Assembly: GCA_034440575.1 (NCBI GenBank)
Contig: JAOTOL010001655.1
Span: forward strand, 4,373,001 to 4,437,000
Direction of reading: 5' to 3'
Length of the DNA: 64,000 bases
Source: Imbricaverruca yamaguchii
Lineage: Eukaryota > Arthropoda > Thecostraca > Neoverrucidae
The notes below the pieces were generated by a model. That model was not told where the DNA came from. It was given only the letters and a program-made list of their open reading frames with translations, and made no database searches. This document shows, piece after piece, positions 29,356-54,090 of this stretch. Position 1 is the first letter of the stretch; each line of letters opens with the position of its first letter. The position numbers and the translations under genes are program-made.

Positions 29356-29760
29356 TTATGTGATATACCAAGACGTCGTTTGCGTGTTTAGTTGCGGCCG
29401 TAGATTATGTATGTGTAGAGATTCGAGGACCTTCAGATCAGCGTTGTCCCTGGCTGTTGCTAGAATTTCTACTTTGAAGTTTGTGTTAGTGTCGCTGCGT
29501 TCCATGTTAGAATGTTTGCCGTTCGCCTAAAGGTGTGTATTCTCTCAGAAGTCCGGTATCTCCCAAGTGCTCATTGTACCCATCCCTGATGCTACGCTTG
29601 GTTTCTCCGACATAAAATATTCCAAGACAGCGGTTGCACATTATTTTATAAACTAAGTTTTTCCACATGCATCTACCTATGAGCCCGTTGCTACAGGTGT
29701 GGCACGTTCTTCTACCAGCAGGGCATGGCGACAATTCCAGGGTTGAGCGGACCAGGTAAG
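29356..29760 (-). pseudogene. Penelope GIY-YIG endonuclease domain, broken
   Basis: A CPAGRRTCHTC cysteine motif precedes LVYKIMCNRC, then GIFYVGETKRSIRDGYNEHL, matching the Y-I-C-C-YVGET-R-EH pattern of Penelope-type GIY-YIG nucleases. The helix position that normally holds the catalytic Arg (RxREH-like) reads Gly in DGYNEH, so nicking activity would be lost. A frame change near 29507 is followed by FKVEILATARDNADLKVLES and HIHNLRPQLNTQT, the usual C-terminal end of the domain with its LN motif. Confidence 0.82.
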
Positions 29761-30059
29761 ATTTCAGCGTAGGTCCGCTAGTCCAGGCTGCCCTAACATG
29801 GCTTAGATGATACGAACGGATGGCTGCATTTACCTGTCAACATAGTTGGTCGTTGACAAAAGGAAGTCTCATGTAGACATAGTTGAGATTGCTACCCGCT
29901 CGATGCCGACGTTGCCCACTTATCCTACTCATGTTGTGAGGGTGAACAGCATGAGCGGCGGAGTGTACCCGATGTGCTGGGTATCCGTTTTCCAGGAAGA
30001 GTCGCCATCTTCGCAAGGCTCCGCTCTCACCAAATAGTATGGGAGGAGACTCGTGCTGC

Positions 30060-31222
30060 TCTCTTCATTTGGGATGTTAAAACGGCCTTTTTAGTGGCCA
30101 TTGGGTGGGTCGAATCATAGTGCAAGATGATGGGGGCTGCCATTGGTTTAAAGTACAGTTCGGTGGTGTAGCTACCATCAGCCTGAACTACAAACAATGT
30201 ATCAAGGAAAGGAATCGAAGTGCTATGAGCAATGTGTTCTAAGGTGAACTTGATGCTGGAGTGTTGTTGGTTAATTTATGCAAGGAAGTCGAGCAGGGAG
30301 GCCAAGCCATGTGTACAAACACCAAAAATATCGTCTATATACCTCATGTAGAGAGCTGGCTTCAAATGATACGAAGCTAAGAAGATCGACTCAAGGCGGT
30401 GCATAAAAGCAATCGCTAAAGTAGGTGCACATCGGTTACCCATAGCCACTCCTTTCGTTTGCTTGTAATAGAGTTACCAAAACGTATGAGGTTATTGTTG
30501 AAAATATGTGTTAGCAATTTCACACAGTCCTGTACCCCAATCCCGAAAAGACAGATATCATCCAGATTGTCCTCGATTAGGCGAATTGCAGCATATATTC
30601 CCTCCTTTATCGGCATACTGCCATATAAATTTGTGACGTCCATGGTGAAAACAATACTGCCCTCCGGAAATTTGTCAGGAAACGTTTCTTTCACCCTCTG
30701 TAGGTACGACTCCGTGTTTGTCAGATGGACGGGAACCAACGCTAGTATGTGGACAAGAATCTTTCTCAAGAACCAAGATAGCTTGTCTAGGGGGTCACCA
30801 CTCGTCGACACTATGGGGCGCAGTGGAACCCTTAGGTTGTGTTTTTTTTGGAGGAGCCCGTATAATTCCGATGTGCGGCTGGAATGAGGAAGGAGAGATA
30901 AAACTGTGCCTTTATGCAAATTCCCGGATAAAGTTTGCCTGATAATAGTACATGTTTCGATTTCTAGACGTCTGGTAGGGTTTGGTTGGGAAGGAATGCT
31001 CTGATAATTGTCCGTTATTGTCCTGACCTTTTCAATGTACTAATACGTTTTGTGTAGCACGACGAATCCTTTGCATTTATCTGACGGCTTCACTATTACA
31101 TTATCGTTGTTTTTCATTTCCCGCAGTACTTCCCTCTGTTTCGCATAATTGTCTGATCTTTCGTTCGATCCTTTGTTGTGATATTTATATGCTTTTAGAA
31201 CTTTTGTTTTTATGTCTTTCAA
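30060..31222 (-). pseudogene. Penelope-like reverse transcriptase, broken
   Basis: The first block ends NDNVIVKPSDKCKGFVVLHK, the N-terminal Penelope motif usually ending in DKG-G-VV. A TAG then interrupts the frame, which continues through ELYGLLQKKHNLRVPLRPIV and FTMDVTNLYGSMPIKEGI. The second carries the first metal-binding Asp of the RT palm. A one-base shift near 30478 separates GVAMGNRCAPTLAIAF and LYMRYIDDIFGV, which carries the catalytic YxDD motif. After a TAA the frame resumes with IKFTLEHIAHSTSIPFLDTL and LYFKPMAAPIILHYDSTHP, the conserved region after the palm. The catalytic residues survive; the frame does not. Confidence 0.85.
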
Positions 31223-40736: not shown

Positions 40737-40875
40737 ATGCTGCTCAACAAGCTGGCGGCCGTGTTCGCCCAGCGGAAGGCCACGTCCAGCCCCATCTACG
40801 AGAGTGTGGACAGTGTGCGCGCCAGGCGCGCGAGCGACCTGGACAGCACGTCCCTGCACTCGGCTGACGGATCAG
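40737..40875 (+). CDS. Probable first coding exon, unknown gene
   Basis: ATG at 40737 opens 46 codons plus one base, closing at TCAG/GTGGGC, a usable splice donor. Third codon positions are almost all G or C, unlike shadow frames. The N terminus is MLLNKLAAVFAQRKATSSPI, followed by a tyrosine motif IYESV (residues 20-24), a basophilic kinase-type site RRAS (30-33) and a Ser/Asp-rich end DLDSTSLHSADGS. No domain or signal peptide is recognised, and it looks intrinsically disordered. Its phase-1 end matches the acceptor at 52130. The ATG choice is the first in frame; an acceptor-like CAG at 40732-40734 means it could instead be an internal exon. Confidence 0.6.
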
Positions 40876-51904: not shown

Positions 51905-52129
51905 CGGTATATGACGTCCCTAACCCCCAGTGCCAGATATGACCCGCCGTCCTTGACCCCCAGTACCAGACATGAGTCAACAGTCCCTAACCCACAGCGT
52001 CAGGTATAACCCGCCGTCCCTTACACCCAGTACCAGGCATGACCCCGCCGTCCCTTACCTCAGTGCCAGTTATGACCCCGCCGTCCCTAACCTCAGTGTC
52101 AGTTGTGACCCGGCGTCCTTGACCCCCAG
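51905..52129 (+). repeat. Acceptor-bearing array, about 36-bp unit
   Basis: Seven units with CCGCCGTCC, (C)TTGACCCCCAG and TGCCAGATATGAC blocks. Each has a pyrimidine-rich run ending in CAG or CTCAG followed by T or C, like a 3' splice site. The last unit's CAG (52127-52129) is the acceptor of the exon at 52130. Confidence 0.85.
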
Positions 52130-52326
52130 TGCGGGAGGCGGACGCGATGTCCCGCGTCGACAGCGGACACGAGACGCTCCTCGACGACGACTCGCCGACG
52201 CCGACGTTTGAGGGCGCCGACCTCAACAGCACCCTGCCCGAGCAGCACATTTACGAAGAGGTGCCCAACCGCAGCGGCGGACCGCCGGCCAGACTGCCGC
52301 ACATCAGCGGTGTGCTGCACAACAAG
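52130..52326 (+). CDS. Probable second coding exon, unknown gene
   Basis: It starts after GACCCCCAG and ends at AACAAG/GTGCGT, a near-consensus donor. The first two bases complete the codon split at 40875, giving Val, and 65 full codons follow to a phase-0 end. Joined to the first exon this makes 112 residues. Features are a start READAMSRVDSGHETLLDDD, then SPTPTFEGADLNSTLPEQ, a tyrosine motif IYEEV (87-91), a Pro/Gly/Arg stretch and the end LPHISGVLHNK. Third positions are overwhelmingly G or C. No domain is recognised. The final 33 bases (residues 102-112) are the start of the downstream array. Confidence 0.7.
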
Positions 52327-54090
52327 GTGCGTGTCATAATACCTGCCGCACATAAGCGGTGTGCTGCACAACAGGTGCGTGTCATAATACCTGCCGCACA
52401 TCAGCGGTGTGCTGCACAACAAGGTGCGTGTCATAATACCTGCCGCACATCAGCGGTGTGCTGCACAACAAGGTGCGTGGTGTGCTGCACAACAAGGTGC
52501 GTGTCATAATACCTGCCGCACATCAGCGGTGTGCTGCACAACAAGGTGCGTGTCATAATACCTGCCGCACATCAGCGGTGTGCTGCACAACAAGGTGCGT
52601 GGTGTGCTGCACAACAAGGTGCGTGTCATAATACCTGCCGCCCAGGTGCGTGTCATAAACCGCCGCACATCAGCGGTGGCACAAAAGGTGCGTGGTGTGC
52701 TGCACAACAAGGTGCGTGTCATAATACCTGCCGCACATCAGCGGTGTGCTGCACAACAAGGTGCGTGTCATAATACCTGCCGCACATCAGCGGTGTCTGC
52801 ACAACAAGGTGCGTGTCATAATACCTGCCGCACGTCAGCGGTGTCACAACAAGCGTCACAAAAGGTGCGTGTCTATACTGCCGACTGGTGTGCTGCACAA
52901 CAAGGTGCGTGGTGTGCTGCACAACAAGGTGCGTGTCATAATACCTGCCGCACATCAGCGGTGTGCTGCACAACAAGGTGCGTGATCTGGTGTGCTGCAC
53001 AACAAGGTGCGTGTCATAATACCTGCCGCACATCAGCGGTGTCTGCACAACAAGGTGCGTGTGCCACGTAGCGGTGTGCTGCACAACAAGGTGCGTTGCC
53101 GCACATGCGGGTCTGCACAACAGGTGGTGTGTGCACAACAAGGTGCGTGTCATAATACCTGCCGCACATCAGCGGTGTGCTGCACAACAAGGTGCGTGGT
53201 GTGCTGCACAACAAGGTGCGTGTCATAATACCTGCCGCACATCAGCGGTGTGCTGCACAACAAGGTGCGTAAACCGGTGTGCTGCACAACAAGGTGCGTG
53301 TCATAATACTTGCCGCACATCAGCGGTGTGCTGCACAACAAGGTGTCGTGTCATAATACCTGCCGCACATCAGCGGTGTGCTGCACAACAAGGTGCGTGG
53401 TTGCACAACAAGGTGCGTGTCATAATACCTGCCGCACATCAGCGGTGTGCTGCACAACAAGGTGCGTGGTGTGCTACACAACAAGGTGCGTGTCATAATA
53501 CCTGCCGCTCATCAGCGGTGTGCTGCACAACAAGGTGCGTGTCATAATACCTGCCGCACATCAGCGGTGTGCTGCACAACAAGGTGCGTGGTGTGCTGCA
53601 CAACAAGGTGCGTGGTGTGCTGCACAACAAGGTGCGTGTCATAATACCTGCCGCACATCAGCGGTGTGCTGCACAACAAGGTGCGTGGTGTGCTACACAA
53701 CAAGGTGCGTGTCATAATACCTGCCGCACATCAGCGGTGTGCTGCAAGGTGCGTTGGGTGGCTGCAACAAGGTGCGTGTCATAATACCTGCCGCACATCA
53801 GCGGTGTGCTGCACAACAAGGTGCGTGGTGTGCTGCACAACAAGGTGCGTGTCATAATACCTGCCGCACGTCAGCGGTGTGCTGCACAACAAGGTGTCCC
53901 GTGGTGTGCTGCACAACAAGGTGCGTGGTGTGCTGCACAACAAGGTGCGTGTCATAATACTGCCGCTCATCAGCGGTGTGCTGCACAACAAGGTGCGTGG
54001 TGTGCTGCACAACAAGGTGCGTGGTGTGCTGCACAACAAGCTACGTGGCGTGCTACACAACAAAGTGCGTGGCGTCCTACACAAGGTGTA
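52294..54090 (+). repeat. Exon-end/splice-donor minisatellite
   Basis: The basic unit is 49 bp: 33 bp identical to the last 11 codons of the exon (CTGCCGCACATCAGCGGTGT, GCTGCACAACAAG) plus the first 16 bp of intron (GTGCGTGTCATAATAC). A 24-bp sub-unit (GCACAACAAG/GTGCGTGGTGT type) is interspersed. I count about 43 donor-like AAG/GTGCGT sites. The last units (54035-54090) are diverged. Confidence 0.95.

Follow-up and report, generated by a model that had tools for sequence, protein, structure and literature searches.

The DNA considered here, which we call the window, is a 64,000-nucleotide stretch of the genome of the barnacle Imbricaverruca yamaguchii (C1422:4373001-4437000 of a 767-Mb genome). 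Within it, the end of one exon together with its splice donor is repeated as a tandem array of about 1.8 kb (52294 to 54084, + strand) that carries 43 copies of the donor in register. The exon is the second of a nine-exon gene of the Fez1/LZTS family. We regard the array as a "mirage" minisatellite, the name used for such arrays in amphioxus. It probably expanded by likely neutral growth, blind to the junction that it covers, and it is predicted to be spliced past, with the exon-proximal first donor winning by its position.

Structure of the Donor Array

The repeat unit is 49 bp long and spans the exon-intron boundary, with 33 exonic nucleotides (CTGCCG...AACAAG, the last 11 codons, 52294-52326) followed by 16 intronic ones (GTGCGTGTCATAATAC). 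The first-pass annotation of this DNA had described the unit as the last 11 codons of an exon at 52130-52326 plus the first 16 bases of the intron, and the description is exact: the native copy at the exon junction shows no differences from the 49-bp consensus given by the program Tandem Repeats Finder (TRF). The copies also carry the splice signal. AG/GTGCGT (the slash marks the exon-intron boundary) is found 43 times, as AGGTGCGT in register with the native donor counted, in agreement with the earlier estimate of about 43 donor-like sites; 41 of them read AAGGTGCGT. This longer motif occurs 41 times window-wide, every time inside the array, and has no occurrence on the reverse strand. When scored with a general metazoan donor matrix, one not specific to the host species, the array has 43 sites that equal or surpass the native donor (24 per kb), vs 23 (0.37 per kb) elsewhere on the + strand of the window.

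The array is a mixture of 49-bp units and shorter derivatives, and its 3' limit lies at about 54084. A tandem-repeat search had been proposed as a check, and TRF confirms both the 49-bp unit (52294-52844) and the 24-bp rows, along with rows of 73 and 122 bp. The 24-bp units correspond to the 49-bp unit minus a 25-bp inner piece. Among the 42 spacings between successive donors there are 13 of 49 bp, 12 of 24 bp, 4 of 48 bp, and 13 others; by alignment the array holds 47 core units.

The Host Gene and Its Paralog

The exon and its donor are real, as they had been taken to be, judging from a full gene model, a paralog, and the proteins of other barnacles. The model has nine exons and encodes 591 residues, with all phases fitting and a terminal stop; exons 1 and 2 lie within the window and exons 3-9 are located 9-22 kb past it. 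The downstream part of the protein contains a Fez1 domain (PF06818, E 7.1e-37, 128.3 bits against a cut-off of 34.4), which places the gene in the Fez1/LZTS family. Exon 1 has its coding part at 40737-40875 on the + strand, from the ATG (MLLNKLAAVFAQRK...HSADGS) to the donor G/GTGGGC; it ends in phase 1, which fits exon 2, and has a collinear counterpart in the paralog on C1317. Exon 2 itself (52130-52326, +) enters in phase 1 and leaves in phase 0, encodes VREADAMSRVDSGHETLL...LPHISGVLHNK, and reads ...CACAACAAG/GTGCGT at its 3' end. The native donor, the first of the 43, is at 52327-52332 (+), and its phase 0 fits exon 3. A donor 4 nt further down (GTGC/GTGTCA) had been suggested by the phase 1 start of exon 4 and was dropped once exon 3, running from phase 0 to phase 1, was found via the paralog.

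Of 7995 candidates scored in the protein search, 70 matched at E ≤1e-3. Both top matches are from barnacles, Amphibalanus amphitrite (58%, over the whole query) and Pollicipes pollicipes (56%), in keeping, like the cuticle-protein matches noted below, with a barnacle host. In both proteins the join of exons 2 and 3 reads SGVLQN(T or A)GPVIRPVA. In the window, the first donor would give the same join, SGVLHNK/GPVIRPVA; no array peptide or other insert is present at this position in the two barnacle proteins. The frame of exon 2, whose conservation had been named as a check, is conserved in the paralog and in the barnacle proteins. By eye, the paralog is closer than the window copy to both barnacle proteins. 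One annotated Pollicipes protein (P0071, LOC119089373) combines a PF04931 protein with an exon-2-like end (ADAMSRVDSGHETL...), and is perhaps an ortholog of the window paralog that has been mis-joined or broken. A PDB sequence search with exon 2 returned a single match (E 1.2), taken as chance.

Collinear exons emerged when 164 kb surrounding the window were compared with 100 kb surrounding the paralog, paralog B. Its exon 2 is at C1317:473414-473603, with 77% nucleotide and 69% amino acid identity, and an equivalent of intron 2 is present in the same place and the same phase. No match to a 21-base core of the array unit was found on either strand of the 100 kb, with up to 3 mismatches allowed. 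As the unit is absent around paralog B, the two paralogs had likely split before the exon gave rise to the array; alternatively, it may have been lost in paralog B. Paralog B has the intron without the array, and intron 2 is therefore likely older than the array. This order of events bears directly on a different explanation, in which tandem duplication of an AGGT segment created the array and, with it, intron 2. The repeat unit does hold AAG/GT, the proto-splice motif of the AGGT tandem genomic duplication model (PMC4974935, PMC3443670, PMC3087553), and the duplicated segment in that model likewise contains AG/GT. Yet the model would have the intron come with the duplication, and the same intron stands in paralog B with no array beside it; we consider intron birth scarcely credible here.

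Frame Consequences of Donor Choice

The product expected from each of the 43 donors was computed. Donor 1 gives the 591-residue protein. The second donor (CAACAG/GTGCGT, 52375-52380, +), 48 nt further on, is the sole decoy that keeps the frame to the natural stop and would add 16 residues. Donors 3, 4, and 5 lead to a frameshift, and donors 6-43 all include an in-frame TAA at 52507-52509 (+). The normal protein is thus not given by 41 of the 43 donors, and the earlier expectation that most downstream donors would yield frameshifted or stopped products is borne out. The reasoning behind it, that each added 49-bp unit (3n+1) shifts the frame, was right in its logic and missed one detail: the first extra unit measures 48 bp, hence the in-frame donor 2. 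A further suggestion, that 24-bp sub-units alone could add 8 codons in frame, fails altogether. None of them touches the exon, as the first three units are 48, 49, and 49 bp, and no such transcript is possible.

These consequences argue against another proposed role of the array, as a generator of protein variants, for which the human gene IFI6 (6-16) would be the parallel. Donor 2 would indeed provide 16 extra in-frame codons, carrying VRVIIPAAHKRCAAQQ, and there is a precedent: according to PMC4526556, two downstream repeat units of IFI6 act as donors. But the unit here is 3n+1, the frame is kept by one of the 42 downstream donors and broken by donors 3-43, and the two barnacle proteins have no insert at this place. 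With 41 of 43 donors expected to break the protein, the proposal is unsupported, and we judge it very unlikely.

Other Arrays in the Same Gene

The donor array is not the only repeat at an exon boundary of this gene. A 33-bp tandem array on the + strand (51915-52132, from TRF and the spacing of AG) ends 3 nt inside exon 2. It contains seven acceptor-like AG in register, 32-34 nt apart, and the native acceptor is the last of eight; exon 2 is therefore set between seven acceptor-like sites upstream and 42 decoy donors downstream. At exon 3, the exon end and donor (GGCA/GTGAGT) are part of a 35-bp unit present in 12.5 copies (L017:8917-9465, which is C1422:4445917-4446465), and the exon start, along with its acceptor, occurs twice. 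A 40/79-bp array at exon 7 starts 3 nt before the exon end and includes the donor; with just 3 exon bases covered, it was not counted as an exon-end array. Tandem repeats with a period of at least 10 cover 22% of the 164 kb around the gene vs 10% around the paralog.

Junction Arrays Elsewhere in the Genome

Similar arrays were found beside unrelated exons. For this sample, 69 protein-kinase exon matches were chosen by eye from 136 listed (150-330 bp, open frame of at most 200 residues, no stop), a selection in which a fitting row was possibly missed. Flanks of 400 bp were used. Loci flagged by TRF (first 40 loci) or by a 24-mer test were then read by eye, 14 in one round and 7 in another, and the counts below refer to these flagged loci and not to a full reading of all 69. 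Arrays made of the exon end and donor were seen at 7 of the 69: L057 (90 bp), L061 (56 bp, worn), L066 (36 bp), L067 (57 bp), L075 (3 copies), L076 (2 copies), and L095 (about 29 bp by eye, with 9 further junction copies in the 24-mer test). Arrays made of the acceptor and exon start were seen at four, namely L062 (40 bp, 10.8 copies), L071 (3 copies), L085 (about 39 bp by eye), and L055, which is weak. In the first 40 kinase loci, tandem repeats account for 16% of the flanking sequence. The units of exons 2 and 3 share a length of 16 intron bases, and a rule to that effect was dropped, as the units hold about 18 intron nt in L066 and about 49 in L057. Among myosin exons, the 24-mer test on 16 donors of 35 fitting matches detected no mirages and at most one further copy, at L111, beside a degenerate array.

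These loci also bear on whether the array could be an artefact of assembly, with the repeat collapsed or inflated. There is a single assembly, and the copy number may be off. However, the units differ from each other, lengths of 49, 24, and others follow in mixed order, the edge units are distinct, and similar arrays are present on ten other contigs (all of the kinase loci just named with the exception of L055). An artefact is highly improbable.

Repeat Rates at Junctions, Introns, and Exons

The frequency of repeats at junctions was compared with that in the neighboring intron and exon. A gapped 40-base test was applied to sites that passed a matrix cut (2 for donors, which left 47 and dropped 22; 1 for acceptors, which left 63 and dropped 6). 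The donor junctions were repeated downstream in 8 of 47 cases, the intron windows in 4-9 of 47, and the exon windows in 1-2 of 47. The cut-off lay above all 345 plain-letter shuffles, which were made for the donor side only, and L095, whose donor array is clear to the eye, was among the donors dropped. On the acceptor side the figures were 8 of 63 for junctions (7 of them spanning the junction, L089 being the one that does not; L035, L046, and L095 were not read as acceptors), 11-16 of 63 for intron windows, and 1 of 63 for exon windows. The ungapped 24-mer test, requiring at least 2 further copies, gave a similar picture. For donors it found 4 of 34 at the junction, 2 of 34 at +20, 3-5 of 34 (or 33) at intron positions +40 to +300, and 2, 0, and 1 of 34 at exon positions -20, -40, and -60; for acceptors it found 3 of 52 at the junction, 6-9 of 52 at intron positions -20 to -300, and a single one of 52 at each of +40 and +60.

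The junction rates do not exceed those of the intron. The birth of arrays therefore seems independent of the junction, and the idea that donors act as seeds of arrays was dropped. Exons are spared; donor junctions are hit about as often as the intron, and acceptor junctions less. This pattern is probably due to extra copies landing in the intron and being cut out with it. In this genome the arrays at exon ends, that of exon 2 included, are likely a harmless side effect of repeats that grow rampantly.

The same comparison weighs against a regulatory role, in which the array, as a decoy platform, would tune expression through competition for U1 or slower removal of intron 2, with decoy use feeding nonsense-mediated decay. 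Several properties of the array would suit such a role. All 43 donors, the native included, score at or above the native matrix score, 41 of the 43 would end in a frameshift or stop, and the donor letters vary slightly less among units than the exonic portion does: mismatches per position among the 47 units average 1.5 in the donor hexamer and 1.0 in the AAG, as against 2.8 in the exonic part as a whole. But the unit is absent from paralog B, the one copy compared, and like arrays occur beside kinase exons of no relation to this gene, at acceptors as well as donors, with rates about or below the intron background. The decoy platform and the tuning of U1 binding put forward in the first-pass annotation are thus unsupported, and we regard this explanation as unlikely, if less so than any of the other alternatives.

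Origin and Predicted Splicing of the Array

Neutral, junction-blind growth would have begun with a short duplication across the exon 2 junction, and the array would then have expanded through slippage or unequal exchange. It could have survived as the copies on the intron side would leave with the intron, with the native junction kept on the array's outer edge. Exon definition provides the basis for the argument from position: the first donor is nearest the exon, and the decoys would be ignored for that reason. Amphioxus mirages are likewise reported to leave splicing undisturbed, as stated in PMC3087553 and PMC3902484.

Several points weigh against this account. The use of the first donor is a prediction. 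The lower variation of the donor hexamer and the AAG may hint at constraint, or may be an edge effect of the alignment. The null result with myosin exons indicates that the frequency of arrays varies between samples. Among the 8 donor hits of the gapped test, L096 is GT-rich and doubtful, and the donor of L062 was not read by eye. The samples are small, and the splice sites outside the Fez1/LZTS gene were placed by the general metazoan matrix.

A bolder form of the account may be entertained, tentatively. Minisatellites in this barnacle lineage would be born so freely, and with so little regard for gene structure, that some 5-15% of exon ends bear near-identical donor or acceptor arrays; splice choice would then go by position and not by sequence, and array length could be a fast-mutating knob that shifts splicing, adds short peptides, and moves introns.

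Comparison with Known Systems

Arrays of this kind are already known. In print we found cases in amphioxus genes, in human IFI6, and in tandem repeats at human exon-intron boundaries (PMC3087553, PMC3902484, PMC4526556, and PMC2812944). What is new is the host group, the copy number, the presence of several arrays in one gene, and the frequency in the sample. The amphioxus mirages (Adh3, the globins BflGb6 and BflGb9, and PGBD5) differ from the present case in host; BflGb6 is described with 3 and 6 repeat units in two haplotypes, whereas 43 donor copies are present here. The barnacle also has arrays on two successive exons of one gene and, by eye, at 7 of the 69 sampled kinase exon matches. 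In IFI6, downstream units of a tandem repeat provide further donors, as they could here; two of these repeats are reported in use, giving isoforms (PMC4526556), whereas the barnacle array has a 3n+1 unit. The human boundary repeats in segmental duplications are similarly variable and may activate cryptic splice sites, but they are tied, in PMC2812944, to recent duplicates and novel introns, while the intron here is likely older than its array. Among the papers listed by searches of an open-licence collection aimed at arthropods, barnacles, or crustaceans, no cases of junction arrays came up, and the main text of a Daphnia tandem-repeat paper (PMC3152781) has no word starting with "splice".

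Junction arrays at many barnacle exon ends would point to a general by-product of minisatellite-rich genomes. They would also serve as natural competition assays, with identical donors that differ just in their distance from the exon, so that splice-site choice by position becomes directly testable. In genomes rich in such arrays, gene finders could misplace exon ends.

Other Features of the Window

Searches of the window with Rfam and ARAGORN gave no matches. TRF listed 130 partly overlapping rows over positions 1-64000, many of them unrelated minisatellites of 20-70 bp. On the - strand, at 29507-31039, there are open frames that resemble pieces of a retroelement, with no Pfam match. The cuticle-protein family PF00379, typical of arthropods, has at least 150 matches in the genome.
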